Program-made: the position numbers and the translations under genes
The notes under the pieces: model-generated
Database searches by the model: none
Told to the model about the DNA's origin: nothing
The model's input: the letters and a program-made list of their open reading frames with translations, nothing else
Origin: Pseudoalteromonas tunicata
GTDB lineage: Bacteria; Pseudomonadota; Gammaproteobacteria; Enterobacterales; Alteromonadaceae
Length of the DNA stretch: 64,000 bases
NCBI RefSeq assembly: GCF_002310815.1
Contig: NZ_CP011033.1
Location: 744,001 to 808,000, forward strand
Direction of reading: 5' to 3'
Part shown: one piece after another, positions 12,162 through 29,358 of the stretch
Numbering within the stretch: the first letter of the stretch is position 1
Layout of the letters: each line of letters starts with the position of its first letter

Positions 12162-12225
12162 TCCATTTTGTTATGTCTATTGTTTTTTAAAGGTTTTATT
12201 AACCAAGCAAATTGTGGAGGTTTTT

Positions 12226-12765: not shown

Positions 12766-14223
12766 ATGGCTACAGCAACTACAACAGTGAATGAATCTCT
12801 TATTGATGGCCTACTAGCCCTTAGTAAGATCCCCGAAGATGATTTGAGTTATTCGATTGCCTCAGTTGGCATGCATTCTTTATTTACTCGCATATTTGAG
12901 CAAGAGGCAGATGCAAGTGAATTAAGAGTCGATAAGCGCTATGTTGAACAATTAATTGAAGAATTAGACCGCAAGTTAAGTTTACAAATGGATGAGGTAC
13001 TCCATCATCCAACTTTCCAATCTTTAGAAGCACCATGGCGAAGTTTAAAGTTTTTAGTTGATAGAACTGAATTTGGTGAAAACATCAAAGTTGAAATTTT
13101 ATCTGTCGATAAAGAAGAATTACTTAATGACTTTCAAGATTCACCTGAAATAACTGAAAGTGGTTTATATCGTAAAGTTTATACAGATGCGTTTGGCCAA
13201 TTTGGTGGTAATCCCTACGGCGTCATTATTGGGGACTATAGCTTATCTCACAGTAATCAAGACGTAGAGCTTCTTAGCCACATGTCTAGCCTTGCAGCAA
13301 TGAACCATGCACCCTTTATAGCCGCAGCTTCACCAGAATTTTTCTCCTTAAACGAATTTGCTGAAATTCCAGATTTAAAACAAATCGAAGCGATGTTCGA
13401 AGGTCCGCAATATATTAAATGGCGACAATTTAGAGACTCAGACGATGCGCGAAATGTTGGTTTAGCACTGCCTCGCTTTATGCTTCGTCCAACGTATGGT
13501 GAAAACATACCCGTTCGTAGTTTTAATTATATTGAAGGCATTACGAATCAATCACAGTACTTATGGGGAAATGCTTCTTTTGCTTATGCCACAAAGTTAA
13601 CCGATAGTTTTGCTAGATACCGCTGGTGCCCAAATATTATAGGCCCACAATCTGGTGGTGAAGTAAAAGATCTGTCGATTAACTTAGTTGATGACAGTGG
13701 TACCACTAAAGTCGTTGGTCCAACAGAAGTGCAATTGTCAGATCGTAAAGAATATGAATTGTCTGAATTAGGGTTTATTCCGCTGACTCTGCGTAAAGAT
13801 TCAGACAGTGCGGTATTCTTTTCATCAAACTCAGTTCAAATGCCGCGTAAATTTACCAATGATGATGAAGGTCGTCAAGCTGAGCTTAATTATAAACTAG
13901 GTACACAATTACCGTACTTATTCATTGTTAATCGCCTCGCACATTACATCAAAGTATTGCAACGTGAAAACCTAGGAAGCTGGAAAAGTCGTGGTGATTT
14001 AGAAATGGAACTTAATAAATGGATTAGACAATACGTAGCTGATCAAGATAGTCCTTCAGCAGCAACTCGTAGTCAAAGGCCTCTGCGTAAGGCGATGCTT
14101 CGAGTAAATGAAGTTGATACAGAGGCTGGTTGGTATGAAGTTGCATTAGAAGTAACACCTCACTTTAAGTTTATGGGCGCTAATTTTACTTTATCACTTA
14201 CAAGTATGTTAGAGCGTGGTTAA
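12766..14223 (+). CDS. tssC: T6SS sheath large subunit TssC (VipB)
   Basis: A 485-residue protein, normal for TssC. Recognisable blocks are HHPTFQSLEAPWRSLKFLVDR (first conserved block, near residue 85), GGNPYGVIIGDY, YIKWRQFRDSDDARNVGLALPR, WGNASFAYA, CPNIIGPQSGGEV, and the C-terminal SAATRSQRPLRKAMLRV and TPHFKFMGANFTLSL. It retains a roughly 85-residue N-terminal part (NESLIDGLLALSKIPEDD and onward) which in characterised TssC proteins contains the inter-subunit linker and the ClpV-binding helix. It forms the sheath with TssB from the adjacent gene. The fused paralogue downstream lacks this N-terminal part. Confidence 0.95.
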   Translation: MATATTTVNESLIDGLLALSKIPEDDLSYSIASVGMHSLFTRIFEQEADASELRVDKRYVEQLIEELDRKLSLQMDEVLHHPTFQSLEAPWRSLKFLVDRTEFGENIKVEILSVDKEELLNDFQDSPEITESGLYRKVYTDAFGQFGGNPYGVIIGDYSLSHSNQDVELLSHMSSLAAMNHAPFIAAASPEFFSLNEFAEIPDLKQIEAMFEGPQYIKWRQFRDSDDARNVGLALPRFMLRPTYGENIPVRSFNYIEGITNQSQYLWGNASFAYATKLTDSFARYRWCPNIIGPQSGGEVKDLSINLVDDSGTTKVVGPTEVQLSDRKEYELSELGFIPLTLRKDSDSAVFFSSNSVQMPRKFTNDDEGRQAELNYKLGTQLPYLFIVNRLAHYIKVLQRENLGSWKSRGDLEMELNKWIRQYVADQDSPSAATRSQRPLRKAMLRVNEVDTEAGWYEVALEVTPHFKFMGANFTLSLTSMLERG

Positions 14224-14271: not shown

Positions 14272-14790
14272 ATGCCTACAGAAATATACATGACAATAAA
14301 TGACCCAGAGGGTTGCTTAACTGAAGAATCCTGTTCAAAAGAAAGTATTGGTTCATTTTTCAAATCTGATCATGAGGAAGAAACATTAGTCTTAGCGTAT
14401 AACCATAAGGTGAGTGTGCCGACCAACTCTTTGACAGGTCAAGTAACTGGTACTCGAAAGCATGAGTATCTTGAAGTAACCAAGTTTATTGACAAGAGTT
14501 CACCATTATTACTCAATTCCGTCACTTCACCTTCTGAGCTGGAAGTGATTTTACGCTTCTTTCGCACACCAGATGAAACCAGTGCGGGCGAGCCGGTTGA
14601 GTACTACAACATTACATTGCAACGCGCAAAGATTGTCAGCATAAATACAATTTCTCCTAACATATTAATTCCTGAAAACGATGGGTTAATGCCGTTTGAG
14701 AATGTGGTATTTACGTATGGCCAAATTCAAGCTGATCATGTGGTATGTGGTACGACAGCGATTGATGATTGGTCTGGTGAAGGCGAATAA
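14272..14790 (+). CDS. hcp: T6SS tube protein Hcp (TssD), first copy
   Basis: A 172-residue Hcp-family protein, the hexameric ring that stacks into the inner tube. The start MPTEIYMTINDPEGCLTEES, the central HEYLEVTKFIDKSSPLLLNSV and the late VEYYNITLQRAKIVSINTISPN, then MPFENVVFTYGQI, follow the order of the family's beta-barrel strands. It lies between tssC and tssJ with a GAAGGATT-type ribosome-binding site upstream. A second, divergent Hcp-like gene sits at 22716-23201 directly after the fused sheath gene. No C-terminal effector extension is present. Confidence 0.9.
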   Translation: MPTEIYMTINDPEGCLTEESCSKESIGSFFKSDHEEETLVLAYNHKVSVPTNSLTGQVTGTRKHEYLEVTKFIDKSSPLLLNSVTSPSELEVILRFFRTPDETSAGEPVEYYNITLQRAKIVSINTISPNILIPENDGLMPFENVVFTYGQIQADHVVCGTTAIDDWSGEGE

Positions 14791-14802: not shown

Positions 14803-15534
14803 ATGAGACTATTAAGTTTGTTTCGGCTCAGTTTGCTAACATTTGCTATTTTTTTTCTAACGGCTTGCAGTTCATTTAACTTTTTTAGTGATGATTCTGA
14901 TAACAAAACCTCAGAAAATAACGCAAGTTATACCAACCCAAAGCAACTAGATCATTGGCTTGATAATGCTTCTGCTTGGCGTAATTGGGATATTAATGGC
15001 CCTAATAACGCATTAGCACAATGGCAATTTGAAGACAATGCCCTGAGTGTTCACCTGCAAGCCAGTGGTGAACTTAATAGTTTCAATAATTTACCACATA
15101 TTTTACACATTAAGGTGATTCAACTAACTGATATAACAGGGTTGAATACATTAATAAAAACGCCAGCTGGGGTTCGTACTATTTTGTCTGAATCAATAGA
15201 GATGATCCCAAATGCTGTGTCTGAAGAAATCGTCACTCTTGCACCAAATCAAACCTTAACCCTTAATTTAGCCCGGCAGCAGGATGCTAAGTTTATTGCT
15301 GTAGTAAGTGGTTTTGCAGAATTAAAACCGACTAATTCAGTCAAGATATTATCCATACCCATTATTACGATTAAAGCACCTCAAGCAGACAAGTCTTGGT
15401 TTGATACCTTAACCTTTGGTTTATTTAGTGATGAAGCTGAGCAAATTCCAGACATTATTCGTCCTGCCACAATTAAAATTCAAGGCCAGTTTGGTGATAC
15501 TGCCATTTCTAAATTCGATGCTCAGGCTTTCTGA
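14803..15534 (+). CDS. tssJ: T6SS outer-membrane lipoprotein TssJ
   Basis: A 243-residue lipoprotein. The signal peptide ends in the lipobox LTAC with the lipidated Cys at 22. The mature part has a short Ser/Asn-rich linker (about 25 residues) and a beta-sandwich: LHIKVIQLTDITGLNTLI resembles the conserved first part of TssJ, and TLTLNLARQQDAKFIAVVSGFAEL the later strands. TssJ anchors the TssLM membrane complex to the outer membrane. The length exceeds the usual 160-190 because of extra residues before the conserved core (WRNWDINGPNNALAQ). Position between hcp and tssK and the lipobox make the call firm. Confidence 0.85.
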   Translation: MRLLSLFRLSLLTFAIFFLTACSSFNFFSDDSDNKTSENNASYTNPKQLDHWLDNASAWRNWDINGPNNALAQWQFEDNALSVHLQASGELNSFNNLPHILHIKVIQLTDITGLNTLIKTPAGVRTILSESIEMIPNAVSEEIVTLAPNQTLTLNLARQQDAKFIAVVSGFAELKPTNSVKILSIPIITIKAPQADKSWFDTLTFGLFSDEAEQIPDIIRPATIKIQGQFGDTAISKFDAQAF

Positions 15535-15552: not shown

Positions 15553-16923
15553 ATGGATCCATTAAAGTCAATTTTTTGGAATCAAGGGTTGTTTCTAAAA
15601 CCTCAACACTTTCAACATTTATCACTTCAAACCCTAGCCCAAAGCTATGCGTTTACAAAAATAACAACAGGTGTTGAGCAGGGCATAGCTTCATTATCAA
15701 TTAACAGCAGTGCGTTAGAAGCGGGTTTATTTCAAATCGAGACATTTGAAGCCATTTTACCCGATAAAACATTATTAGTTTTTCCTGGGAATTGTTCTAT
15801 TGCGCCACTTTCAATTGCAAATATGAGTACAGACAAAGACAGCACAATTGATATTTATCTCGCTGTTGCACCGGTATTAATCGATGAAAATAATGTTTCT
15901 AATAATGTAAATGAGCAAGTTCGTTATATTCATAACGAGCCCGCTACTGTTGTCGATATGTATGATTTTGAAGAGCAAACTCAGCTCAATACGGTTAATA
16001 TAAAATGTAGATTAATTACAGAAAAAGAGCTTGAACACCACAAAGAATCAATTTGTATTCAAATTGCTAAATTATTCTCACAAGCTGGTAAATTTACTTT
16101 AAGCAGTGATTTTATTCCTTCAATTATCACCATTGCTTCTTCATTAGTCTTACAAACAAATATTCAATCACTTAAACAAAGTTTAATGGCAAGATATGAG
16201 CAGCTTGAAAGTTTTAGTTCGCTCAAAGGCCAGCAAAGTAGTGATATTTCCAGTGCAAGTTTATCAACAATTATGGCTTTAAATGTGCTTGCTAATGCCA
16301 TTCCGCAATTGGCACACTTTGAGGAGTGTTTGCATTTAAAAACAGAACAATTATATCTGTGTTTACGCCAGCTCATAGGCCAGCTCAGCTTATTCTCAAG
16401 AACCATTTCTGTGTTAGGTTACAGCACCCAAGTATCAGAATCTTTACTTCCTTTTAATCACGAAAACCAAACGGAATGTTTTCATCGAGCATTTTCATTA
16501 ACCCGATTATTACTCAATGAATTGACTATTGAGCCAGAAATGCTGATTCATTTTATAGCCCAAAATGAAGCCAAATTTGTCGCAACATTAACTGCAGACT
16601 TTTTAGCAAAAAATAATCGCTATTATTTTAGATTACGCTCTAAAGAAAATCTTGAGCTAAGAGTGAGTGACATTTTACAGTTTGCAAAGCTTGGGGCGGA
16701 TGGACAAGTGGATGTCTACATCAAACGCGCATTACCAGGCATCAAATTAAGCTATTTATCAAGAAAACCACTAGGGGTAGCGAGTTCACCAAACAGTTAT
16801 TACTTCAGTTTTGATACCACTTCTTTTGAATGGCATAAAGCACTCGAATCGGGCAGATTAGGACTTATTTGGCCCGATGCTCCAGAAGACTTACAGGTTG
16901 AAATCATTGCGGTAAGGGGGTAA
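15553..16923 (+). CDS. tssK: T6SS baseplate protein TssK
   Basis: A 456-residue protein of the TssK family, which links the baseplate to the membrane complex. The hallmark N-terminus is present: IFWNQGLFLKPQHFQ at residues 8-22. The middle contains the helical TssK segment, and the C-terminus has YIKRALPGIKLSYLSR, YYFSFDT and a final ALESGRLGLIWPDAPEDLQ, as in other family members. It is followed two bases later by tssL. Confidence 0.93.
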   Translation: MDPLKSIFWNQGLFLKPQHFQHLSLQTLAQSYAFTKITTGVEQGIASLSINSSALEAGLFQIETFEAILPDKTLLVFPGNCSIAPLSIANMSTDKDSTIDIYLAVAPVLIDENNVSNNVNEQVRYIHNEPATVVDMYDFEEQTQLNTVNIKCRLITEKELEHHKESICIQIAKLFSQAGKFTLSSDFIPSIITIASSLVLQTNIQSLKQSLMARYEQLESFSSLKGQQSSDISSASLSTIMALNVLANAIPQLAHFEECLHLKTEQLYLCLRQLIGQLSLFSRTISVLGYSTQVSESLLPFNHENQTECFHRAFSLTRLLLNELTIEPEMLIHFIAQNEAKFVATLTADFLAKNNRYYFRLRSKENLELRVSDILQFAKLGADGQVDVYIKRALPGIKLSYLSRKPLGVASSPNSYYFSFDTTSFEWHKALESGRLGLIWPDAPEDLQVEIIAVRG

Positions 16924-16925
16924 AC

Positions 16926-17585
16926 ATGAAGTTAATCAATGCGTTTATCCCAGTATTGTCTTATCTCAAAAGTATTACTGGACTGCTCACCGAATCGTCA
17001 GAATTAGATCAAGAACAATTGCAGCAGCAGTTAATGCCTCAACTGATTAAGTATAAAGAAACCTTACTCAATAATGGCTATTCGAGTGAACAATTTGAAA
17101 CTGCCTTGTTTGCTATTTGCGCTTTGATTGATGAGGCGGTATTAATTTCTGAATGGAAATATAAAGACAACTGGTTGAAAAATCCGCTGCAAAAACAATT
17201 CTTTGAAACTAACTCTGCGGGTGTCGAGTTTTTTGAAAAATTAGACAACCTAAAAGAATTAAATACAAAAGATCAAGATATACGAGAAGTGTATTTTTAC
17301 TGCTTAACATTCGGATTTACGGGGTGTTATTTTGATATTGGTCAAAAAAGTCAGCTTAACGATATTATCCAAGCTAATTATAAATTGCTTAACAACTATC
17401 AAGAAATCAAATTATTTAATCCAAAAATACCAAGTAATCAAGTAACACTCGTAGATCAACAAATGCATGAATATTACAAAAGAAAGCTCTTTACTTGGGG
17501 GCCAATTGTATTTTTAGTGGCGAGTTTCTTTTATTTTAGAAATGATTTTTTGAGTGTTTTGTACACATTCATCAGTAGTATTTAA
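16926..17585 (+). CDS. tssL: T6SS inner-membrane protein TssL (DotU family)
   Basis: A 219-residue protein with a cytoplasmic helical domain and one C-terminal membrane helix (about residues 188-206, WGPIVFLVASFFYF), the standard short TssL without a peptidoglycan-binding extension. FETALFAICALIDEAVLISEW is the conserved DotU segment, and FYCLTFGFTGCYF corresponds to the family's LGFxGxY block. TssL binds TssM in the inner membrane. Gene order tssJ-tssK-tssL-tssM is that of typical clusters. Confidence 0.92.
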   Translation: MKLINAFIPVLSYLKSITGLLTESSELDQEQLQQQLMPQLIKYKETLLNNGYSSEQFETALFAICALIDEAVLISEWKYKDNWLKNPLQKQFFETNSAGVEFFEKLDNLKELNTKDQDIREVYFYCLTFGFTGCYFDIGQKSQLNDIIQANYKLLNNYQEIKLFNPKIPSNQVTLVDQQMHEYYKRKLFTWGPIVFLVASFFYFRNDFLSVLYTFISSI

Positions 17586-17600
17586 GTCATAGGAAAAAAT

Positions 17601-20600
17601 ATGAAAAGTTTCTTTAAGTTTCTACTGGTGTTTTTTATCTGGCTTGTGGTATTGGGTTTATGCTTAGGAGTCTGTATTTTACTTGAACAGGAACTTCAGC
17701 TTGGTGTTATGATTTTCTTAGGTATTTTATTTACATGGTACTTTATAAAATTTTTAATTTTTATTGTTAAAAGGATCAATGCAAAAAACCGGGTCGAAAA
17801 GTTAATAAATCATGATAAAGACTCTACAGGTACAAAAAAAATATCACTCCTTCAGTTTTTCATAAAAAGAGATATTGATAAACATATTAGCAAGGTCATT
17901 AAAGCCATTAATAGAATTGGCAGTAAAAGCAATTCAGCACCAACGAAATGGGTCATGCATTTTAAGGTTAATAATACTGACGGTCAGTGGTTATATAGTA
18001 AAAGCGTAAATCGACCAAAAGTAACAGAACCCGTTTTTAATGAGCATCCATTTATTAATTGGTTAGTGTTTAATGAGTTTGTTTTACTTGATGTTGATGA
18101 ATATTTATTATCTGAAAATAATGGTGCCGCACAACTTGAATGGTATCAATTATTAAATGGCTTAGCTGCGAGTGACAAGGTGATGCCTGTTGATTCGATT
18201 GTTTTTTCAGTTAATGTTAACACTATCGAAACGGCTTTAGAGCAACAAAAACTTGCTGATCAGTTAAGACGTCATTATGAAGATATTCGCACCTTCTGTG
18301 GTGTCGAAGTAAATATAAATATTGTTCTGATTGGGATGGATAAACTAAATGGCATTGATACTTGGCTATCAAATTTAGATCCAATTTTAAAGCAAAAAGC
18401 ATTTGGAGTCATCAATAGTGGTACTTCAAGCGCAGAGCAACTAGTACAGCAAACATTTTCTGAACTCGGTGCTGTATTTAGCCAAGGATCGCTTTCTTAT
18501 CTGGTCAAATATGGTTATGAACAAACCGCAGCGGAACTTCCCTTTAAAGCGAGTGAAATTGAAGATGCACTCACTAAATGTTTAACACGTTTATTTTCAA
18601 ATAATTCTTTTCAAAATGCGCCTAATTGTAGTGGCTTATTTTTAGTGATGGAGCAAGAGTCTAACTTCTGTTTTGTTGAAGGATTACTAGAGCAACCAAG
18701 CTTATCTTGGCCATATGCTGTTAAAACAAATGTGGTCACTTTAAGTGATAAAGAAAAAAGAAAACGAAAACTACTTTATCTAGCAGGATGCTCTTCGTTG
18801 TTTGGGATGATTTATTTGATTTATGGGCAGAGCATGGCTTCGTTAGATCAATTAATGGATAAGTATCAAAGTAAAGAGTTTAATTTAAATAACCAATCTG
18901 GCTTACTTGAGAGCATTAGTGCTCGACATGAACTTATTAACGACTTACAAACATTGAATGTGGCGCATTGGTTTGCGCAAGGAAACGACCCATTAAAGTT
19001 AAATGTATTACGCGCTAAAACAATTGATAAAATTCAAAAAAATATACTAAACCCGCTTGATGAAGTATTTCTAAGTGATATTAACAAATTTGATGAAATG
19101 AGTATTAATCGAAAGGTCGATTATATTACTGTATTGTCTCGTCGGATTAATCTAATTAACTCAGCGATTAACGGTACGGGTATAAATGATTTAGCGCTAA
19201 TGCCACAACCGTATGATGCAAGTTTTATTCGCACTATGCCAGCCCAATTAATTGAAGAAATCAATACAGTTTACTTACAACGAATCGATTTACTTCAGCA
19301 ATCAGGAAGAGAAAAACTCAATACATTATTATCAAAAGAAAAAACACAATTTCAAAATAGTATTATTAGTTTATTATCGAGTAATAACGACAACTTGGAA
19401 TGGCTAACAAACTGGGTTAATCAGAATCAAAGCATCAAAGACATCACGTTAGCTAGTTACTGGCAAGGCACCGTATTGGATGCTGATGATATTAAGGTTC
19501 CTAGGGTCTATACCGTAGCTGGAAAAGCAGTGATCGATAGTTTTTTTAGCGACCTGCGATTAGCCTTGGGCGAAGATAATCAGTTTTTAGCAGTCTATCA
19601 GCCGAAATTTATCGAGCAATATCAAATTAATTACCTCGCGAGTTGGGGAGCATTTTTAACTTCCTTTAACTTAGGCGAAAAAACATTAGCGACACGAGAT
19701 CAGTGGCTAAATGTTATTAATAATTTAACAACAGGTCGAAATATCTATTTTAAATTATTAAACGAGTTAGATTTTCAATTAGCCCCCTTCAAAGACAGCG
19801 AAAATGTGCCTCAATGGCTAGAGTTTGCCTTGTATTATCAAGATATGCTCGCGCTTGGCGAAGATAAGGTGAACAGTAATAAGAAAAAGAATGCGGTATT
19901 AACTAAGTTGGCACTTAAGCTTATTGGCAGTACTGGGGCAGTGGGTAAAGCTATCGCAGGATCAGCAAAAAGTGGACTCAAAACGCAGAAGAAATTAGAC
20001 AAAGCATCAGGTTCAGGCCCAGGACCTACAGAGCGAGAGCTTAACCTTCAACAAGCTGCCGCAGAGCTTGATAACTATAAAAGTACACTCGCTGATTTAG
20101 TCTTTAAAGTAGAGCAAAAATCAGAATCGTATAAAAATGCGGTTGGTTATTTTTCTAACCCAGATAATCCAGCTGCTGCAGGTACGTCGCTTGCTGCAGC
20201 GCAAGGCAGTATTCAAAAACTGCAAGGTTTGGTTGGTAAGTCAGGCATATCTACTGTGCCATTTTGGCAGATTTACACTGGGCCTGTGTCGTTGTTAGAA
20301 CAATTTATGGTCAAAGAAGCCGCGTGTAAACTTGATGATTTTTGGCAAGAGAAATTCTTGTTTGAACTTCAAGGTGTGCCAAGTGCTAAAGTTGAAAGTT
20401 TTGCTTATGGTGAAGGAGGGATTTTATGGGGATTTATTGACTCCTATATTCAGCCATTTATCTATACTAAAAAGGCGGGAATTTATACTAATAAGCGAGT
20501 CAATGAGTTAGGTCTTCCTTTTTTACCTGACTATCTAAGTTACCTAAGCACGGTTAAAGATTTCAGTAAAAGACAAAAATTTGAATCGTTTAGTTTAGAT

Positions 20601-21029
20601 ATAACTTCTAAGCCAACCAGTTTAAATAACAGCGCCTTATTATATGTCAGTAAAACGCAATTGGCTTTGCAATGTGCATCTGGTGAACAAAAAATTGAAA
20701 ATAATAATTATATTACTAGTCAGCATTTTACTTGGGAGCAAAGTTGTGGCCCTGTCTCGTTAAGTTTTCAAATTGGTAATAAAACAATTGTTAAATCTTA
20801 TCCAGGGCAAGATGGGTTGAAGCATTTTCTTAATGATTTTAAAGCGGGTAAAAAACGCTTTGAAACAGAAGAATTTGCTGAACATTTCTATGTGTTAGAT
20901 CAATTTAAAATTAGATATTTAGACGTTACATTTGAAATTGAAGGTGGTGCTAAGTTGTTATCAGCTTTAAATCAACTGCCTCCTTCACCGCCTAAAAATC
21001 TGGCGATGTGTTGGTCGCGTTATGAATGA
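17601..21029 (+). CDS. tssM: T6SS inner-membrane protein TssM (IcmF family), no Walker A
   Basis: An 1142-residue IcmF-family protein. Two membrane helices lie within residues 1-55 and a third near 390-408, followed by the large periplasmic domain that contacts TssJ. The cytoplasmic domain aligns with the IcmF GTPase-like region (WLVFNEFVLLDVDEYLL; then LRRHYEDIRTFCGVEVNINIVLIGMDKLNGID). At about residues 114-135, where many TssM proteins have a GxxGxGKT P-loop, this one reads WVMHFKVNNTDGQW, so no nucleotide-binding Walker A is present. The gene overlaps the next by eight bases. Known TssM proteins vary in whether they keep the P-loop, so the protein is probably functional. Confidence 0.92.
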   Translation: MKSFFKFLLVFFIWLVVLGLCLGVCILLEQELQLGVMIFLGILFTWYFIKFLIFIVKRINAKNRVEKLINHDKDSTGTKKISLLQFFIKRDIDKHISKVIKAINRIGSKSNSAPTKWVMHFKVNNTDGQWLYSKSVNRPKVTEPVFNEHPFINWLVFNEFVLLDVDEYLLSENNGAAQLEWYQLLNGLAASDKVMPVDSIVFSVNVNTIETALEQQKLADQLRRHYEDIRTFCGVEVNINIVLIGMDKLNGIDTWLSNLDPILKQKAFGVINSGTSSAEQLVQQTFSELGAVFSQGSLSYLVKYGYEQTAAELPFKASEIEDALTKCLTRLFSNNSFQNAPNCSGLFLVMEQESNFCFVEGLLEQPSLSWPYAVKTNVVTLSDKEKRKRKLLYLAGCSSLFGMIYLIYGQSMASLDQLMDKYQSKEFNLNNQSGLLESISARHELINDLQTLNVAHWFAQGNDPLKLNVLRAKTIDKIQKNILNPLDEVFLSDINKFDEMSINRKVDYITVLSRRINLINSAINGTGINDLALMPQPYDASFIRTMPAQLIEEINTVYLQRIDLLQQSGREKLNTLLSKEKTQFQNSIISLLSSNNDNLEWLTNWVNQNQSIKDITLASYWQGTVLDADDIKVPRVYTVAGKAVIDSFFSDLRLALGEDNQFLAVYQPKFIEQYQINYLASWGAFLTSFNLGEKTLATRDQWLNVINNLTTGRNIYFKLLNELDFQLAPFKDSENVPQWLEFALYYQDMLALGEDKVNSNKKKNAVLTKLALKLIGSTGAVGKAIAGSAKSGLKTQKKLDKASGSGPGPTERELNLQQAAAELDNYKSTLADLVFKVEQKSESYKNAVGYFSNPDNPAAAGTSLAAAQGSIQKLQGLVGKSGISTVPFWQIYTGPVSLLEQFMVKEAACKLDDFWQEKFLFELQGVPSAKVESFAYGEGGILWGFIDSYIQPFIYTKKAGIYTNKRVNELGLPFLPDYLSYLSTVKDFSKRQKFESFSLDITSKPTSLNNSALLYVSKTQLALQCASGEQKIENNNYITSQHFTWEQSCGPVSLSFQIGNKTIVKSYPGQDGLKHFLNDFKAGKKRFETEEFAEHFYVLDQFKIRYLDVTFEIEGGAKLLSALNQLPPSPPKNLAMCWSRYE

Positions 21030-22716
21030 TTTTGCAACGGTTTCGTTCATCCCTGAGCATGCTGAAAACTTACCATTTAAGGTATTAGTTATTGCTCAAC
21101 TGACAGGTATTGATGATGAACATTTACCCTACAAAGCGAAAGAAATTAATCGTGAGAACTTTTCTGATGTGATGAAAAGTTATGACATTAGTTTACGCTT
21201 AGAACTTGAAAATGATCGTTTATGCGACATTTTTAATGTCGAGAAGCAATATTTTACAATTAATTACCCAATAAACTCACTTGCATCGTTTCATCCAGAA
21301 GCCATTTTAGAATATGAACCTAATCTAAACATTATTGCCGATATTATTGTTCAACTTCGGGCATGTTTACAGCGTGCTACCTTTACGTTTGACCAAGAGC
21401 AATTTTCATTTCATGGTCTTAATTTAGCTATTTTTGAGTGTTTACCTGTTAAACGTGCGGATCTTGAATGGGCCGTTTGTGAATTAGAATCTGTGATCTC
21501 TGATGTGCTTGATGCGATTTTACATCATCCACAATGGCAGCAAATTGAATCATCATGGCGAGGTCTTTGGTGGTTATGCCAAGATGTCACACAAGAAAGC
21601 CGCTGTATTGTTGAATGTTTGGATTATGTGCCATCGTATTTTAAAGAGGATGTCTGTCATACCTCGGATGTACTTGATAGCGATTTATATCACCATTTGT
21701 ATTCAAACCATTTAGGGCTTTATGGTGGTATTCCTTATGGCAGTATTTTGCTCGATTACGCATTTTCGAATCAATTACCAGATCTACAATTTCTTGGTCG
21801 CATGGCGCAACTGTGTGCTCATTTACATGTGCCCTTAATCAGTGGTGTTAGCCCGCAGATGTTCACTACCAGTGATTTTAGCAGACTGGTTGAGCTTGGC
21901 AGTTTAATAGATGTTTTTGCTTCTTCGCGCTATATCAAATGGCGTAATTTTTGTGAGCAAGAGCAGGCTAATTATGTCGCACTTACCTTACCTCGATTAT
22001 TAATTCGGTCAGCTTATAACCCAGAAAACAGCTCGCTCAGTTGGTATCATGAGCAGATTGGACGTAGCTCTGAAAATTGTTTATGGCTGAATGCCGCCTA
22101 TGGATTTACCCATAATTTAATCAAAAGCTTTATGGAAAATGGTTTTTGTAATTTGATTTTTGGCCAAGAGGGAGGGCAACTTAATATTGAGCAATTACAT
22201 GCGTTTAATGATGCATTACCTGTTGAAGTGACGCTTTCAGAAATCTGCGAAGCTGAATTAATTCGCTTGGGTTTTAATCCGGTTTGCAGTCGAGTGCATG
22301 CCAAACAACTATTGTTTCAATCGGCAAATTCTGTGCAATGGGGTTATATCAACCAACATTTGAAAGCTTATAACACCAGTCAAATGGCAGCGGCACAATT
22401 ACAATATCGTTTTATTGTATTGCGTACTTTGCACTGCATAAAAATTTTATTTCGAGAAAAAATTGGCTCAATAGAAACAATGCAAGAATTAACCGATTAC
22501 CTCAATGTGTGGTTAAGGCAATTCGTTTCTGATGTTGAATTTCCAAGTAAAGCTATTCGAGCTCAACGACCACTTCGTGATGGGAAAATTATTGTCACCG
22601 AGGCATCCTTACAAGGGTGGTATGACATTAGTGTTGCTTTGACGCCACATTTTAAATTTTTAGGTAATGCAATGACTTTTGATGCAAGCCTCACTTTGGC
22701 TGAAGGAGAGGCGTAA
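21022..22716 (+). CDS. TssB-TssC-like fused sheath protein
   Basis: A 564-residue protein in which both sheath subunits can be read. Residues about 15-125 match TssB: LPFKVLVIAQLTGIDDE, then RENFSDVMKSYDISLRLEL and a terminal helix (DIIVQLRACLQRA). From about residue 145 it follows TssC: HHPQWQQIESSWRGLWWLC, GGIPYGSILLDYAF, RYIKWRNFCEQEQANYVALTLPR, WLNAAYGF, LIFGQEGGQL, FPSKAIRAQRPLRDGK and TPHFKFLGNAMTF. The first roughly 85 residues of a normal TssC, which hold the linker and ClpV-binding helix in known sheaths, are missing. The frame is intact and the gene is translationally coupled to tssM before it and an Hcp paralogue after it. The island also has a separate tssB and tssC. It may form a second sheath, a cap or an assembly factor; which is not known. 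Confidence 0.85.
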   Translation: MNDFATVSFIPEHAENLPFKVLVIAQLTGIDDEHLPYKAKEINRENFSDVMKSYDISLRLELENDRLCDIFNVEKQYFTINYPINSLASFHPEAILEYEPNLNIIADIIVQLRACLQRATFTFDQEQFSFHGLNLAIFECLPVKRADLEWAVCELESVISDVLDAILHHPQWQQIESSWRGLWWLCQDVTQESRCIVECLDYVPSYFKEDVCHTSDVLDSDLYHHLYSNHLGLYGGIPYGSILLDYAFSNQLPDLQFLGRMAQLCAHLHVPLISGVSPQMFTTSDFSRLVELGSLIDVFASSRYIKWRNFCEQEQANYVALTLPRLLIRSAYNPENSSLSWYHEQIGRSSENCLWLNAAYGFTHNLIKSFMENGFCNLIFGQEGGQLNIEQLHAFNDALPVEVTLSEICEAELIRLGFNPVCSRVHAKQLLFQSANSVQWGYINQHLKAYNTSQMAAAQLQYRFIVLRTLHCIKILFREKIGSIETMQELTDYLNVWLRQFVSDVEFPSKAIRAQRPLRDGKIIVTEASLQGWYDISVALTPHFKFLGNAMTFDASLTLAEGEA

Positions 22717-23201
22717 TGGAATCTGCTGGATATATGCAAGTCAATGCATCAAAGCAAGGCACAATAGCGGGATCTTCTTTACGTAAAAACCGTGAAAATT
22801 TAATTAACTTATATTCGTTTAATCATCAAGTTAGTGCTTCATGGCAAGCTCATAGCCACATCAGTAATGGCGAAATTATCCATGCACCCATCTCGATAAC
22901 AAAGGAAATAGACCGAAGTACGCCCAAATTATTTCAAGCTATGGTCGAAAAGGAAGTACTAAATATTGAACTTGAATGGTTTCGTTTTAATGTCAACGGC
23001 AAAGAAGAGCGTTACTTTAAAATTGAGCTTAAAGATGCACAATTACTTTCAATTAACCAAATGATGCCAGAGATTGGCGATAAACGTTCAGAACAACTCA
23101 GATTAATGGAATCTATTATCATTGCTTACAGTGAGATTACGTGGAGCTGGGGGCCATTTGGTGATATCGCCTATCAAACAAATTGGCGAGGTGAGCGATA
23201 A
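22716..23201 (+). CDS. Second, divergent Hcp-like tube protein
   Basis: A 161-residue Hcp-family protein sharing the order of strands with the first Hcp but little sequence: NLINLYSFNHQVSASWQ, then HAPISITKEIDRSTPKLFQAMV (compare the EVTKFIDKSSPLL block of the first copy), YFKIELKDAQLLSINQMMPE (compare the LQRAKIVSINTISPN block) and LMESIIIAYSEITWSW. The start codon overlaps the stop codon of the fused sheath gene (TAATG), and its own stop overlaps the tssE start, so all three are translated together. Pairing of a second tube protein with a second sheath protein suggests a matched set. An alternative is a dedicated first-ring or effector-specific Hcp. Confidence 0.75.
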   Translation: MESAGYMQVNASKQGTIAGSSLRKNRENLINLYSFNHQVSASWQAHSHISNGEIIHAPISITKEIDRSTPKLFQAMVEKEVLNIELEWFRFNVNGKEERYFKIELKDAQLLSINQMMPEIGDKRSEQLRLMESIIIAYSEITWSWGPFGDIAYQTNWRGER

Positions 23202-23590
23202 TGTTACGTTTAACTGAGCGCTTAGCCTTACTCAATGATGAGCAACAAGACAGTGGCAGGCGCCAAAGTATTGCTGATTCCATCGTAAAATATCTCAATC
23301 AATTGCTCAATACTCGCATTGGCAGCGTTGCAATATCTCCTTCGTTAGGTATGCCAATAGTGGACCTAAGTACAGGGGTCGAATCACCTGATGAACTGAT
23401 TAATTATCTTAAAAAACAAATATTACATGGTGAACCGCGTATTGTTGAGCTTAATCAAATGATAAATAAAACAAGCAATCCTAACATTTTATTAGCGGTC
23501 ATATTTTCGTGTCTTTGTTACGACCAAACTAGCTTTAAGTGTGCGATAGAATTAAAAATGGATAATACAATTGAGGTAAATTTAGTATGA
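23201..23590 (+). CDS. tssE: T6SS baseplate protein TssE (gp25-like)
   Basis: A 129-residue gp25-family protein that starts sheath assembly at the baseplate. The N-terminus MLRLTERLALLNDEQQDSGRR, the following SIVKYLNQLLNTRIGSVAISPSLGMPIVDL with the conserved arginine-glycine segment, and the later EPRIVELNQMI block match the family. The start overlaps the stop of the Hcp-like gene by one base, and the end overlaps tssF by four bases. Confidence 0.9.
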   Translation: MLRLTERLALLNDEQQDSGRRQSIADSIVKYLNQLLNTRIGSVAISPSLGMPIVDLSTGVESPDELINYLKKQILHGEPRIVELNQMINKTSNPNILLAVIFSCLCYDQTSFKCAIELKMDNTIEVNLV

Positions 23591-25344
23591 CCTCCTTAGA
23601 TAAGTTATATCAAGATGAACTCAAATTATTAAAAGATTCAGCCCGTGTTTTTAATGAGCAGCATCCAGCGTTAACTGAGCATTTGGTTAAAGAAAGTAAT
23701 GATCCTGATGTTGAAATGATTATGCAGGGGGTTGCTTATTTAACTGCAAAATTTAAGCAAGAATTAGAAGAGCCTTTCTCGCAAGCCCTGCAATCGTTAT
23801 CTCAAGTTTTAGCTCCAGCGTTAATGCAGCCGATCCCCGCATCCGCAATTCTTTCATTCAAACCAAAGGTTGGTTTATTAAAACCGATCACCGTTAAAGC
23901 GGATGCTTATTTTGACTCTAAAGCAGTGACACATAAAGGAGGGAGTCATCCATGTCGTTTTAAAGGAAGTTGGGATACTGAGGTATTACCCATCACTTTA
24001 AATCAGATCAGTCAAAATTATAATGAGCAACAAGTCAGTGGTATTACATCACGTTTAATCGAATTAAAACTAGAATTTGATTCATCAAGGAATGATTTAG
24101 CCAACTTTTCATTTGATAAAATAAGATTATTTATCAATCAACCCTTGTCTGATGCGAGTTTATGGTTGTTCATGTTTGCCAAACAGTTGGTCAATCTAGA
24201 ATTAAAAGATAAAAACTCAACCATTGCCTTAAATACTAAAGCGATTAAGCTCATTGGCTTTGAGGAAGAGTTTGCACTGTTTGATTTTGACAGTGTTGCT
24301 CAGTCACATCGCGTCTTACAAGAGTATTTTATTCAACCTGATAAGTTTTTATTTATAGAAATAGATGTATCAGCATGGCAAAGTCGCATGGGTGAGAATT
24401 TTAGTTTGACTTGTCGTTTTACTCAGCCAAATTGGCCTTTACCTGAGTTGTTGCTCTCGCATCTGCACCTTTTTGCAATGCCTATCGTAAATCAGTTTGA
24501 GCACTTCTGCGAGCCGACCGCAATTACTAATAAAGATCATCATATTGCTTTGGTTGCAAAGTCTGATCCTACAGCCAATGCGCAAGCGTTAAGTATTATC
24601 GATATCAAAAGTGTTGAAAGTATTTTGCAAGGTCGAGAGATTAATCGTAAGTTTGAAAATATACTCAAACCAAACAGCCTAATTAAGCGTAAATCTAGTT
24701 TTTATTTTTTTCGTAAGCATGGAACCATTGACGGTGAAGTAAGTAATTGGTTAGCTCTTGAGTTTCCTGCGCACAAACCGCTGGTGAGTCATGAAGTGCT
24801 TCGAGCTAAAGTGATTTGTTGCCATGGCGCAATCGCTCAGCATTTAGCCTTGGGTGATATCAATAAACCAACCAGTACTAGTTCTGAACTAATGACCTTC
24901 GAAAATATTACTCTGTGCACTGAATATCAATATCCACAAATCGCATCGGAATCCGCTTGGCACGTTATTTCTGATCAAGCACTCAGTATTACGTCGATAA
25001 AGGATGTAGAACAGCTAAAACAAATTCTCAAACATCATATTCCAAATCAAACTAAGCTATCTGCAAAACAAAAAACTAATTTGTTTCGCATTGAAGCGCT
25101 CGAAAAGCTAGTGGTAATTGAAAAGGATCATTTTAATAATGGCGCACTGTCACGGGGGAAAGAATTTAAGCTCAGTATAAATGGCGATAATTTTACCAAT
25201 GTGGGTGATATGTTCTTATTTTGCTCTATTATTAATAAGTTATTGGCATTATCAACACCCATCAATAGTTTTAGTCAGCTAAAAACGATTGATTTAAGAA
25301 CAGGAGAGTCACTTGAATGGCCGATACTCGTGGGCAAAAACTAG
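23587..25344 (+). CDS. tssF: T6SS baseplate wedge protein TssF
   Basis: A 585-residue protein, the normal size for TssF. The N-terminal LYQDELKLLKDSARVFNEQHPALTEHL and DPDVEMIMQGVAYLTAKFKQELEEPFSQALQSL are the strongest family blocks, and ALMQPIPASAILSFKP follows as expected. The middle contains the LFINQPLSDASLWLFMF segment. TssF forms the wedge with TssG and TssE. It overlaps tssG by 28 bases. Gene order tssE-tssF-tssG is canonical. Confidence 0.93.
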   Translation: MTSLDKLYQDELKLLKDSARVFNEQHPALTEHLVKESNDPDVEMIMQGVAYLTAKFKQELEEPFSQALQSLSQVLAPALMQPIPASAILSFKPKVGLLKPITVKADAYFDSKAVTHKGGSHPCRFKGSWDTEVLPITLNQISQNYNEQQVSGITSRLIELKLEFDSSRNDLANFSFDKIRLFINQPLSDASLWLFMFAKQLVNLELKDKNSTIALNTKAIKLIGFEEEFALFDFDSVAQSHRVLQEYFIQPDKFLFIEIDVSAWQSRMGENFSLTCRFTQPNWPLPELLLSHLHLFAMPIVNQFEHFCEPTAITNKDHHIALVAKSDPTANAQALSIIDIKSVESILQGREINRKFENILKPNSLIKRKSSFYFFRKHGTIDGEVSNWLALEFPAHKPLVSHEVLRAKVICCHGAIAQHLALGDINKPTSTSSELMTFENITLCTEYQYPQIASESAWHVISDQALSITSIKDVEQLKQILKHHIPNQTKLSAKQKTNLFRIEALEKLVVIEKDHFNNGALSRGKEFKLSINGDNFTNVGDMFLFCSIINKLLALSTPINSFSQLKTIDLRTGESLEWPILVGKN

Positions 25345-26309
25345 CTGAACTTGAGCAAGACTTAATCACAAACGCAACTCAATATTCATTTATTCAGGCT
25401 TATAAACTGTTATGCCAATTAGTGCTCGCTAAAAAAGCCGAGCCTTTGAAAGTGATCAGAATAAGACCCGCACTTACCTTGTCTTTAATGCGCTCTGAAG
25501 TTGTTTCAATTGAGAAAGTTTTTGTTGATGAAAAAAACGAATTGTATTTTCTTGAAGTGAATTTAATGGGGCTTTATGGACAAAGTTCACCTTTGCCTAA
25601 ATTCTTCACTGAAGAAATCATGCAAGCGCATGCCAAAGAAAGTGACGCCGCACGGTTATTCTTAGATTTAATTCACCAACGGCTTTACCAGCTGTTATTT
25701 GAGGCGCAAACGCGCAATCTGCCTCATATTAATCCCAATGGTAAAAACCAAATCTATGATTTTATGTTCAGCTTAATTGGATTTCGTGACAAAGTTTGGC
25801 TTAATGACTTTCCAGATCCAAGTTTTTTATTACGGAACATTAATTTGTTTCGCCATCAAAAAGGCACGGCAAGTGGCCTCAAACAATTAGTCTCCCGCTT
25901 ATTTACCCATTCATCTGTTGAGGTGAGCCAATACGAAACACGTGATTTAGTGATGCCAAAGTCTCAGCGCTTTACTCTAGCACAACAAGGAGATTGTTTA
26001 GGGGTTTCAACTTTACTGGGTCATAAAATTAAAGATAGCCAATCAAAAATACTGATCGCGATAAATCCAATATCAGAGCAAGAATTTAACTTTTGGATTA
26101 ATACTCCTCAAAATTGGCTGAGTTTAAAGCAACTGATCCGCTATTTTGTGGTGCAGCCGTTGCTAATTGATATCAAGTTAGAGATAGAGCATGGCGATTT
26201 ACTCACCTTATCGCTCGATAATGCCCAACCTGCAAAGTTGGGCTTAAATACTTGGTTGCATCCAGATAGACAACACCACACCGTGCAGAGCCAAATGCGA
26301 TTATTATAA
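25317..26309 (+). CDS. tssG: T6SS baseplate wedge protein TssG
   Basis: A 330-residue TssG. Visible family blocks are YSFIQAYKLLCQLV near the start, VIRIRPALTLSLMRSEVVSIE, LMGLYGQSSPLPKFFTEEI, and SGLKQLVSRLFTHSSVEVSQYETRDLVMPKSQ. The C-terminus carries QQGDCLGVSTLLGHKIKDSQSKILIAINPIS, matching the conserved late domain. The ATG lies inside the tssF end and has an AGGAGAG ribosome-binding site ten bases upstream, which fixes the start. It is followed after 19 bases by vgrG. Confidence 0.92.
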   Translation: MADTRGQKLAELEQDLITNATQYSFIQAYKLLCQLVLAKKAEPLKVIRIRPALTLSLMRSEVVSIEKVFVDEKNELYFLEVNLMGLYGQSSPLPKFFTEEIMQAHAKESDAARLFLDLIHQRLYQLLFEAQTRNLPHINPNGKNQIYDFMFSLIGFRDKVWLNDFPDPSFLLRNINLFRHQKGTASGLKQLVSRLFTHSSVEVSQYETRDLVMPKSQRFTLAQQGDCLGVSTLLGHKIKDSQSKILIAINPISEQEFNFWINTPQNWLSLKQLIRYFVVQPLLIDIKLEIEHGDLLTLSLDNAQPAKLGLNTWLHPDRQHHTVQSQMRLL

Positions 26310-26328: not shown

Positions 26329-29300
26329 ATGAGTACGTATTCGTTTAGTTTTGAAGTTGATGGTTTTGATGAAAATTTATTCACATTACAGCGATTTAAT
26401 GGCAATGAAGCCTTGTCTTGCTTATTTTACTTTGACGTTGAACTAAAGTGCCTTGATTTAAACTTAGAATCAAAGCAACTCCTTAATAAATCGGCAAAAC
26501 TCACCATTTTTTTGAATCAAAAAGCAATTCGTACTGTTAAAGGCATTATTAATTTATTTGAAGATACCTATTATTATTCGAATGCTGTTTTGTATAAAGC
26601 GCGCCTTGTCCCGCACGCGTGGGCATTAACAAAGTTTGAATCGAACGAAGTGTATTTAGATCAAACAATTTCAGAAACGCTCAGTTGCATTTTGGATGAA
26701 ATAGGCCTGTCTTCAACTCAATATAGATTTGATTTTAATAAAGAATATAGAAAATGGCCTTTTCGTTTGCAATATAGCGAGTCGCATTTTAACTTTTTGC
26801 AACGCTTAATCGAACGAGAAGGTATTTATTACTATTTTGATAGCACTAAAGAGAATGATGTTTTAGTGTTTACCGATAATATTGCTAGTATTCAGCCAGC
26901 CCAAACAACCCCGTTGTTATTTCAACCTCTGAGTTCAGTGAAAGTGTCTGACGATGTTGGATTTATTTCGAGTTTTATTTGTAAACAACAAAGCCTGCCA
27001 CAAAAAATAGTCTTGCGTGATTTTAACGAGTCTTTACCTTCTTTAGATGTGCGTGGGGAAATTGAGGTAGATTCGATGGGGATGGGCGAAATTAATCTTT
27101 ATGGCTTAAATATTTTAACTCCCGAAGAGGGGGAGGCTTTATGTCAGGTGCATGCCAATAGCTATTTGTGTCGCCAAGAACAATTTATTGCTGCTTCAGA
27201 ATTGGCCTTGATGGCCCCAGGCGTTAGTTTTAAGTTACAAGATCATCCAAAAGCAAGCTATAACCAGCATACTTATATTTTAGAAAGTATTTCTCACTCA
27301 GGTGTCAATGTCAGCGTAGATGAAGGCAACAACGAAACAAACTTAAGTACTGCTGCGTATGAAAACAGTTTAATTGCTTATTCATCGATACATGAATATG
27401 CACCACAACGAACCACTAAAAAACCCGAAATCAATGGGACATTAAATGGCATTATTGATTCTGAAACCGACGGAGAATATGCCGAATTAGACGAATTTGG
27501 TCGATATAAAATTAAACTTCCTTTCGATCGACGTAACCGAGATGGCGGCAAGGCATCCCATTGGATCCGAATGATGCAACCCTATGGAGGAACAAAAGAA
27601 GGTATGCATTTCCCTCTGCGTAAAGGGACTCGGGTCTTACTGAGCTTTATTGGCGGTGATCCAGATAAGCCTGTGATTGCTGGGACAATTACCGACTTAG
27701 GTGAGCAAAGCTCATTAGTGAACTCTCAAAACGCAACAAATTCTATGATCCGCACCGCTGCCGGTAATAAAATTGAGATTGAAGATAAAGAAGGTCGCAA
27801 CCGTATTAAGTTTGAATGTCCAACCAATAATACTTACATGCACTTAGGGGCGCCCAATCATGATGGGTCAGGGTATGTGCTCATTACCGAAGGTATTGAA
27901 CGCAAAGATATTCAAGGGGGTCAGCGCCTCACAATTCAAGTTTTAAGTGAAAATCCGACTCATACTTTCTCTGAATCTGACCAAAGTACAGCTACTGATT
28001 ATTCAGACATTCAAGAATTTAAAGTACTCGATCATGCCGGTATGGTGGTTGAAACAATGACAACTGATATGGAAATTGAAGGGAGTTATTTAGTTGAACG
28101 TCGTTGTGGGCCTAAATATTTATTCACCGATGGTAATGAGCACGTTTATGGTGGCGGTGATGTGTATGGTTTTGGTAATGGCTATGAAGAGTCCCATTGG
28201 CGAGAAGCGGATGATGGAGGCGTTCATCCTGATGAGGTATTTAAAATATTAGGGGATGATGGCGAAGTTTTTGTTGAAGAAGATGGCCAATACTCTCGTG
28301 ATTATCAGAAAAAAATTGATGGCGCAATTCGGTTTGATCCCGGTAATCATCAAATAGAAAAAGTATGGTCAGATACTTTCTCATATCAAAATGGCAACAA
28401 TTATACTTGGGGCGATACTTGTGATTATGAGTTTGGCAATGGCTATGCAGAAAGCCATGTGGATACCAATGATGACGGTAGTCCTGTTAATCCGTTAAAC
28501 AAAAAAGACTGGCCATTTGATTTAGCCATACCGCAAGTGAGTGATGAAAATCCACATTTAGTGGCGGTAGGTGCAATTAACGGTGTCTACGTCAAGCTTG
28601 ATGGTGGCAATACCGGAGTCGAGAAAAGCATTGGCAATGCTTATGAATATAGCCATGGTAATAGTCTTGCGGTGAGTTATGCCTGTGATGAAGAAGAACA
28701 CAGTTATGGCGGAGAAAAATACGAAGCGACTTACACTAAAGAGGGTAAGCTGGTAGGTTCTGAGCATAAAAAAAATGGTGTATGCACCGAAATAGAGCAA
28801 ACCCCTGATGGGGATTTTAAAGAAGAGACTATTTCTGATGTGTCAGGTGTCGGTAAAGTGACCACAACGAATGTCTATGCTTATGGTGCACCTGTTTCTT
28901 ATGAAATTGTACGAGAGCCTGCACCAGGTTCTACTTTTAGTTTTAAAGGGGATGGATTACCTACGATTGAAATGAAAATGGAAATCGATGTTGGAGCCAC
29001 GGAGATAGCTACGCATATAGGGGGCATGAGCAACAAAGTTGAGATGGAAGCGTTAGGCATGAAAAATGAAATCACAATTTCTGGCGCAATTATGTCCAAT
29101 ACCATCGAGCTTTCAGGTTGCCCATTAGAAACCGAAATAAAAACAGGCGATGATGGGTTAGAAATAAAGGCTTGGATTGGGCCTTTAAAAACGATTATGG
29201 AAACACGGGCCCTTGAGCTTGAGACTAAACAAGCATTGGAGCTAAAAACTAAAACATTAGAAATAATTTCAAATCAACTTCAGCTCGCTTCAACAAATGC

Positions 29301-29358
29301 TCAATTAACAAACAGCCAAGTGCGTTTAGCTAACTCATTAATAACCTTAATTAGTTAA
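26329..29358 (+). CDS. vgrG: T6SS spike protein VgrG (TssI) with long C-terminal extension
   Basis: A 1009-residue spike protein. Residues 1-370 are the gp27-like region (LQYSESHFNFLQRLIEREGIYYYF is the classic VgrG block). Residues about 373-470 are the gp5 OB-fold (GRYKIKLPFDRRNRDGGKASHWIRMMQPYGG, then FPLRKGTRVLLSFIGGDPDKPVIAG). RTAAGNKIEIEDKEGRNRI begins the beta-helix stalk. From residue 500 on there is a roughly 500-residue extension with three related motifs, FGNGYEESHW near 611, FGNGYAESHV near 702 and IGNAYEYSHG near 767, then a beta-helix-like tail. No catalytic domain is recognised in it. The following genes encode DUF2169, DUF3540 and a PAAR-like protein, so the extension may be a longer stalk or a docking surface for them. 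Confidence 0.92.
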   Translation: MSTYSFSFEVDGFDENLFTLQRFNGNEALSCLFYFDVELKCLDLNLESKQLLNKSAKLTIFLNQKAIRTVKGIINLFEDTYYYSNAVLYKARLVPHAWALTKFESNEVYLDQTISETLSCILDEIGLSSTQYRFDFNKEYRKWPFRLQYSESHFNFLQRLIEREGIYYYFDSTKENDVLVFTDNIASIQPAQTTPLLFQPLSSVKVSDDVGFISSFICKQQSLPQKIVLRDFNESLPSLDVRGEIEVDSMGMGEINLYGLNILTPEEGEALCQVHANSYLCRQEQFIAASELALMAPGVSFKLQDHPKASYNQHTYILESISHSGVNVSVDEGNNETNLSTAAYENSLIAYSSIHEYAPQRTTKKPEINGTLNGIIDSETDGEYAELDEFGRYKIKLPFDRRNRDGGKASHWIRMMQPYGGTKEGMHFPLRKGTRVLLSFIGGDPDKPVIAGTITDLGEQSSLVNSQNATNSMIRTAAGNKIEIEDKEGRNRIKFECPTNNTYMHLGAPNHDGSGYVLITEGIERKDIQGGQRLTIQVLSENPTHTFSESDQSTATDYSDIQEFKVLDHAGMVVETMTTDMEIEGSYLVERRCGPKYLFTDGNEHVYGGGDVYGFGNGYEESHWREADDGGVHPDEVFKILGDDGEVFVEEDGQYSRDYQKKIDGAIRFDPGNHQIEKVWSDTFSYQNGNNYTWGDTCDYEFGNGYAESHVDTNDDGSPVNPLNKKDWPFDLAIPQVSDENPHLVAVGAINGVYVKLDGGNTGVEKSIGNAYEYSHGNSLAVSYACDEEEHSYGGEKYEATYTKEGKLVGSEHKKNGVCTEIEQTPDGDFKEETISDVSGVGKVTTTNVYAYGAPVSYEIVREPAPGSTFSFKGDGLPTIEMKMEIDVGATEIATHIGGMSNKVEMEALGMKNEITISGAIMSNTIELSGCPLETEIKTGDDGLEIKAWIGPLKTIMETRALELETKQALELKTKTLEIISNQLQLASTNAQLTNSQVRLANSLITLIS

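Follow-up and report, generated by a model that had tools for sequence, protein, structure and literature searches.

The window analysed here, 64,000 nucleotides of the Pseudoalteromonas tunicata genome (contig NZ_CP011033.1), carries a type VI secretion system (T6SS) gene cluster in which one 564-residue protein joins a TssB segment to a nearly complete TssC, while separate tssB and tssC genes and two hcp genes lie in the same gene run on the same strand. The fusion, designated FUS, occurs in at least 11 distinct genomes representing seven genera. It is a paralogue of the sheath heterodimer turned into a single-chain, phage-like subunit, with loss of the TssC N-terminus that the unfoldase ClpV grips. 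Our preferred interpretation, to which we assign a probability of roughly 0.4, is that FUS would form a low-copy, non-recycled sheath ring, most likely next to the baseplate, paired with the second tube protein, Hcp2, beneath the ordinary TssBC-Hcp1 tail.

The FUS reading frame (21022..22716, plus strand, as are all features of the cluster given below) has 564 codons and no internal stop, and translates into a TssB segment (about residues 14-117), a linker of 27 residues (118-144; 21373..21453), and the TssC part (145-564). Three Pfam families match this one chain, all above cut-off: T6SS_VipA (PF05591, the TssB core) at residues 14-114 (21061..21363; 41.5 bits, cut-off 24), VipB (PF05943, the TssC N-terminal domain) at residues 151-439 (21472..22338; 261.8 bits, cut-off 27), and VipB_2 (PF18945, the gp25-like C-terminal domain with the handshake acceptor strands) at residues 452-553 (22375..22680; 92.5 bits, cut-off 27). 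The NCBIfam TssC model scores 317.6 bits (cut-off 271.5), and the TssB model TIGR03358 scores 41.8 bits, under its cut-off of 97.25. TssB-family matches at E <= 0.001 occur in two places in the whole genome, the separate tssB and FUS. The C-terminal arm lies at residues 546-560 (22657..22701), and a putative TssB-type N-terminal arm strand, ATVSFIP, at residues 6-12 (21037..21057), where confidence in the structural model is low for residues 1-5 and middling to about residue 20. Pfam matches to FUS at E <= 0.01 include no ImpA_N, the domain of the TssA cap and priming protein. The original prediction, made from the letters of the sequence, that TssB and TssC are joined here in one chain beside normal copies of both, is thus borne out by the Pfam domains and the shared gene run. 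A frame or assembly artefact is ruled out by intact homologs in 10 other genomes, by their membership in one clade, and by a ratio of nonsynonymous to synonymous substitution rates (dN/dS) of 0.096 in the one pair compared, in which FUS is under purifying selection. The frame is intact in all 11 genomes; an apparent TAA within the fusion of genome G237 arose where the match overran the end of the frame, which is intact at 576 residues.

Of the 204 protein matches, the best 120 contain 12 clusters that belong to this family over their full length, the window's own included, with identities of 35-100%. Draws of genomes at increasing taxonomic breadth returned fusions in 2 of 108 genomes for the genus, 4 of 395 for the family, 5 of 394 for the order and 3 of 369 for the class; the draws overlap and each includes the window's own genome, and the family, order and class counts are lower bounds, since at most three candidates per genome were scored there and only those with E <= 1e-100 kept. 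One fusion, that of G103, agrees with protein P0004 at 563 of 564 residues; this near-identity makes G103 either Pseudoalteromonas ulvae or a very close relative of it. The gene order tssM-FUS-hcp2-tssE-tssF-tssG is found in every one of the 11 genomes. Whether such fusions always accompany separate tssB and tssC and a second hcp, as the original prediction had asked, can be answered for most of them: separate TssB and TssC are present in 10 of the 11 genomes (on another contig in G1188) and were not found in G438, whose contigs are broken on the relevant sides, and a second hcp is present in 9 of the 11 clusters, the other two, G1188 and G438 again, being interrupted by contig ends. An hcp gene adjoins FUS in all 11.

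A tree of TssC parts (66 rows) was built by a quick method without bootstrap, leaving out P0003 and P0004 and containing neither phage rows nor TssC40. It places 20 fusions on one side of a branch with support of 97 by the Shimodaira-Hasegawa-like approximate likelihood ratio test (SH-aLRT), and the partner TssCs from the same genomes group with ordinary TssCs. This single clade speaks for one origin of the fusion. Two other single-chain TssB-TssC joins, P0064 (563 residues) and P0078 (672 residues), fall elsewhere in the tree; these are putative genes and may be joined frames. Among related loci in genome contigs, of which 80 of 459 were kept, the three annotated (L100, L102 and L103) each carry separate tssB and tssC; all three entered the alignments, and L100 and L102 the tree as comparison rows. 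Plasmid records gave 436 matches, of which 9 cover 80% of the query or more, and no full-length fusion is present among the 12 matches listed, all of which are annotated as tssC.

Several other TssC-like proteins came up beside these. The 663-residue proteins of G054 and G094 were considered as fusions and rejected, being long TssCs accompanied by a separate tssB. In two genomes of the same genus (L180, 7710-9701; L181, 10680-12671), a 663-residue TssC with an N-terminal extension of about 180 residues adjoins a separate tssB. The 663-residue TssCs constitute a long TssC branch of another T6SS. Tandem TssC1-TssC2 pairs occur in genomes of the genus (L182, 7981-10924; L183, 9080-12127), and the TssC2 of G014, on a very long branch of the tree (3.85), recalls TssC40 of Agrobacterium.

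Comparison with the Pseudomonas aeruginosa TssB1/TssC1 structure 5n8n, with residue numbers derived with the help of PMC5807055, shows where the two proteins were joined. The TssB part of FUS stops at the end of TssB helix 117-133 and the TssC part starts at TssC helix 66-86, so that about 27 residues stand in for the C-terminal end of TssB and for TssC residues 1-65, the latter comprising helix H1 and the ClpV-binding segment. Across 39 canonical TssC rows, 53-90 residues precede the helix at which the TssC part of FUS begins, the upper values being inflated because some rows read from stop to stop. Alignment to these rows confirms the earlier claim that the ClpV-bound N-terminal helix of TssC is absent from the fusion, and the LKGPxGN region at the TssB C-terminus is absent in 20 of 20 aligned fusions. 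In the window's subgroup the linker between N-terminal arm and core has lost about 5 residues relative to the TssB of the cluster itself; in the G1123 fusion, arm (ERINLVYK) and linker are still of the canonical kind. Residues with known roles are largely preserved. VipB K223A fails to assemble and VipB D333A fails to contract (PMC5797969), and their counterparts by alignment are Lys306 (21937..21939) and Glu407 (22240..22242). The first position is lysine in 19 of 20 fusions and arginine in one; the second is acidic in all 20. Directly after this acid, 4 of 20 fusions retain the arginine that 37 of 39 canonical TssCs have there, so contacts may differ from those of a canonical sheath.

An AlphaFold prediction computed with 87 alignment rows, which replaced a 12-row model with a predicted local distance difference test score (pLDDT) of 60.9, gives a confident and complete sheath-subunit fold. 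Structural superposition matches it to TssC and, across both halves, to the single-chain sheaths of phages, R-pyocin and extracellular contractile injection systems (eCIS). N-terminal arm, core and C-terminal arm are thus predicted in one chain, with domain packing of the phage and eCIS type, which agrees with the sheath-subunit nature that the original prediction had attributed to the protein.

So complete a predicted fold, together with the retained assembly and contraction residues, might suit a second, independent phage-like sheath, in which FUS would polymerise on an Hcp2 tube into a tail of its own on a shared baseplate, free of ClpV recycling. The adjacency of FUS and hcp2 in 11 of 11 clusters, placed as tssBC-hcp is ahead of tssE-F-G, points the same way. 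We nevertheless consider this improbable: the cluster holds a single set of tssE, F, G, K, J, L and M, FUS has a weak ribosome binding site and diverges as baseplate genes do, unlike a bulk polymer, and its arm linker is about 5 residues shorter at a place where length is critical, contraction being abolished when two or more residues were added to the TssB arm linker (PMC5797969, which lengthened the linker rather than shortening it). The predicted fold also looks compatible with TssBC, and in Vibrio cholerae a sheath containing both altered and normal VipA behaves as the altered form dictates (PMC5797969). FUS might be a minor component interspersed in the TssBC polymer, tuning its stability or length, for example through stretches that the unfoldase cannot grip. 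This strikes us as improbable too, as the dedicated hcp2 neighbor and the baseplate-side gene position would then need a separate reason, and, with the arginine beside the contraction acid so scarce, contacts may differ from those within TssBC.

Four observations suggest a low-copy ring rather than bulk sheath: the divergence of FUS, its weak ribosome binding site, its constant place beside hcp2 and tssE, and the lost ClpV handle. Conservation was compared in seven chosen genome pairs, with tssF truncated at the locus ends of G103, G574 and G274, and tssB truncated at a contig end in G528. In all 7 pairs tssB, tssC and hcp1 are each better conserved than FUS, by at least 7 points in six of them and by 1-5 points in the closest, G574/G663. 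The conservation of FUS is close to that of tssE, F, G and K, and hcp2 falls below tssB, tssC and hcp1 in 5 of 7 pairs. Canonical clusters behave likewise, their sheath genes being more conserved than their baseplate genes. Pairing at the FUS ribosome binding site is weaker than at the tssC site in all 10 clusters compared, and weaker than at the hcp2 site in 10 of 11; tssB was excluded from the ranking because its start is uncertain, and the hcp2 start of G528 looks wrong in it. Rapid divergence is also what an assembly factor or chaperone for TssBC and Hcp acting outside the particle, or a functionless relic, would show; the purifying selection seen in the one pair, the frames intact in 11 of 11 genomes and the complete predicted fold make either very unlikely.

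Several results weigh against a low-copy basal ring. FUS does not have one of the weakest ribosome binding sites of its cluster in the three genomes with ClpV, and elsewhere tssM, tssF or tssG have still weaker ones in several clusters. Codon adaptation (means over eight genomes: FUS 0.59, tssC 0.63, hcp1 0.64, tssE 0.54) is uninformative, as it fails to set FUS apart from the genes of the bulk sheath. Since FUS-hcp2-tssE-F-G repeats the common order tssB-tssC-hcp-tssE-F-G, its position may simply be inherited. Identity to canonical TssC is 25% in the C-terminal arm of the fusion and 39% in the acceptor strands, a difference that looked supportive before a control was applied: equally diverged pairs of canonical TssCs drop more (2-20% in the C-terminal arm at core identities of 25-42%), and a paired comparison of arm and acceptor in 10 genomes gave p = 0.39. 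Having failed its control, this test provides no evidence for the position of the ring. TssE, the proposed docking partner, is not unusually diverged in fusion clusters, with 26.5% identity to canonical TssE (18 pairs) and 28.3% between canonical TssEs (3 pairs), in a comparison of 6 of the 11 fusion clusters with 6 canonical clusters.

If FUS does form a basal ring, it would be made in small amounts and assemble at the baseplate into a ring of six sheath subunits, Hcp2 supplying the corresponding ring of the tube. The two arms of each fusion would dock into TssE, its gp25-like strands would accept the arms of the first ordinary TssBC ring, and the main TssBC/Hcp1 tail would grow on top. Lacking a handle for ClpV, the fusion ring would stay on the baseplate while the contracted sheath is dismantled. 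We propose the ring by analogy with PVC/AFP, which have several sheath proteins, and with eCIS tube initiators (PMC8894135). According to PMC5813253, arms in the T6SS sheath reach from each ring to its neighbour on the baseplate side, with TssE as the suggested acceptor for the first ring, so the arms of a fusion ring would go to TssE. In PMC5807055 the TssB arm finds its partner within one disc, and the geometry is therefore not beyond dispute. A bolder extension, which we hold to be doubtful, is that of a composite tail, in which a permanent basal segment of FUS and Hcp2, ungrippable by the unfoldase, would carry a disposable TssBC/Hcp1 tail polymerising on top of it; the collar could be re-used, and evolution would have re-joined the split sheath protein for the part that is not recycled.

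ClpV and TssA are distributed unevenly among the fusion genomes. ClpV scores above its curated cut-off in 3 of the 11 (G1123, G1188 and G438), and TssA (PF06812) is present in two, adjoining tssB within the fusion cluster in G1123 and somewhere in the genome in G438. Neither ClpV over cut-off nor TssA was found in the remaining eight, most of the genomes being draft assemblies; the window's genome, one of these, is 100% complete, and G601, another, 82%. In the window's genome the best match to the ClpV model reaches 826 bits, under the cut-off of 885, and PF06812 has no match. The best ClpV-model matches in the eight genomes are presumably ClpB. The partner TssCs of these eight form one group in the TssC tree (support 99), which is most simply explained if ClpV and TssA were lost once, together. 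Their separate TssC retains its N-terminal helix in altered form, with S/T-K in 8 of 8 at a position that reads T/S-R in G1188, G1123 and the TssCs of L100, L102 and L186; L184, with no comparable motif, was left out of this comparison. Such a change would fit another unfoldase, and in Francisella, whose T6SS has no ClpV, ClpB is involved (PMC5481754; PMC6745524). The term non-recycled, used in the original prediction, fits the fusion, whose ClpV grip site is lost; 8 of 11 genomes lack ClpV over cut-off. Because ClpV is found in three fusion genomes and TssA in two, FUS did not arise simply as a replacement for them. G1123, G1188 and G438 are basal with ClpV, two of them with TssA, so that the order of events may be readable from living genomes: the fusion may have come first, and the loss of ClpV and TssA later.

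The failure to find TssA in 9 of the 11 genomes, the window's included, is an argument for another alternative, that FUS is a distal cap, a last sheath ring that stabilises or terminates the tail and succeeds TssA where that protein was lost. Cap proteins would be low-copy and may evolve fast. The coexistence of FUS with TssA in G1123 and G438 weakens the idea, especially as regards a sole role as TssA replacement, and if arms run toward the baseplate (PMC5813253), a cap would need canonical arms and could dispense with the acceptor, which FUS has kept. The arm test itself does not discriminate, and on balance we judge a cap unlikely.

The remainder of the gene run supplies the other parts of the machine. 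Upstream of FUS, in order, are the separate tssB (12214..12723; PF05591, 175.5 bits; translation may really begin at the ATG at 12226), the separate tssC with its N-terminal helix (12766..14223; profile match and alignment), hcp1 adjoining them (14272..14790), a tssJ-like lipoprotein gene (14803..15534), tssK (15553..16923), tssL (16926..17585) and a tssM-like gene (17601..21029) in which the IcmF N-domain alone is recognised. The start of FUS overlaps the end of tssM by 8 nucleotides, and its stop overlaps the start of hcp2 (22716..23201) by 1. Then follow tssE (23201..23590; under curated cut-offs in both libraries), tssF (23587..25344), tssG (25317..26309) and vgrG, or tssI (26329..29358), these and the genes from hcp1 on being assigned by profile match apart from tssE. 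TssB, C, D, E, F, G, I, J, K, L and M are thus all present, with TssE, TssJ and TssM scoring under their NCBIfam cut-offs. Beyond vgrG come a DUF2169/pentapeptide protein, a pentapeptide protein, a DUF3540 protein, a PAAR-like protein, a HAMP-SpoIIE protein with a weak match to the SiaA phosphatase, and a small slr1659-like protein, the last two closing the T6SS run (34416-36592). Relatives of this pair occur in the G103 and G663 clusters as well, and a phosphorylation switch for the T6SS is possible. A gene resembling a response regulator, with a C-terminus that by eye is of LuxR type, diverges from tssB (11356-11994), and G103 has a 211-residue frame in the same place (L081, 7187-7822). Farther away, overlapping plus-strand frames at 48422-49027 and 49015-49467 resemble by eye two parts of one PhoD-like gene, perhaps broken.

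No description of a fused TssB-TssC protein was found in the literature searched, which included work on the Pseudoalteromonas T6SS and left most subscription papers outside; in the 2009 genome survey (PMC2660368), the passages on fused proteins and fusions concern other proteins. An earlier description elsewhere is possible. Unlike phage sheaths, those of the T6SS consist of two separate chains and have an outer domain for recycling by ClpV. Here some marine bacteria add, beside the normal two-part sheath, a version joined as in phages, probably a special ring of the machine. A conserved, re-joined subunit without the recycling handle, standing next to the two-chain sheath, would count as evidence for a tie between recycling and both the split and the handle, and would point to specialised layers in some T6SS tails, as in the Photorhabdus virulence cassette (PVC) and antifeeding prophage (AFP). 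In the gammaproteobacterial T6SS branch without detected ClpV or TssA, sheath recycling and tail priming must work differently.

The nearest known systems are the TssBC pair itself, second TssCs such as TssC40, and the sheath paralogues of PVC and AFP. FUS resembles TssB-TssC (VipA/VipB) in both Pfam families, in predicted fold, in the assembly lysine and in the contraction acid; it differs in being one chain, without the TssC N-terminal helices or the TssB C-terminus and with a shorter arm linker, and in standing beside an additional, separate TssBC pair. In TssC40, Agrobacterium likewise has an extra TssC-like protein in addition to TssB-TssC, and TssC40 and TssC41 are non-redundant for Hcp secretion (PMC3702570), but TssC40 has no TssB part and another gene position, and two tandem TssC2 rows lie outside the fusion clade in a tree that did not include TssC40 itself. 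The Francisella T6SS shares the absence of ClpV with eight fusion genomes and differs in that its solved sheath (3j9o) is built from separate IglA and IglB chains. Sheaths of R-pyocin, PVC/AFP and phages are, like FUS, one chain with N-terminal arm, core and C-terminal arm, and R2 pyocin, without the ClpV-recognised domain 3, is not recycled (PMC5807055); FUS differs from all of these as an extra subunit beside a split sheath. Because its TssC part groups inside T6SS TssCs, in a tree without phage rows, the one-chain state was probably regained rather than ancestral. PVC and AFP are other contractile particles with no TssB-TssC fusion; they offer a parallel for a layered tail: several sheath proteins occur in one PVC/AFP machine, and AlgoCIS has separate tube initiators, Alg5 and Alg7, beside its main tube protein (PMC8894135), as Hcp2 would be beside Hcp1.

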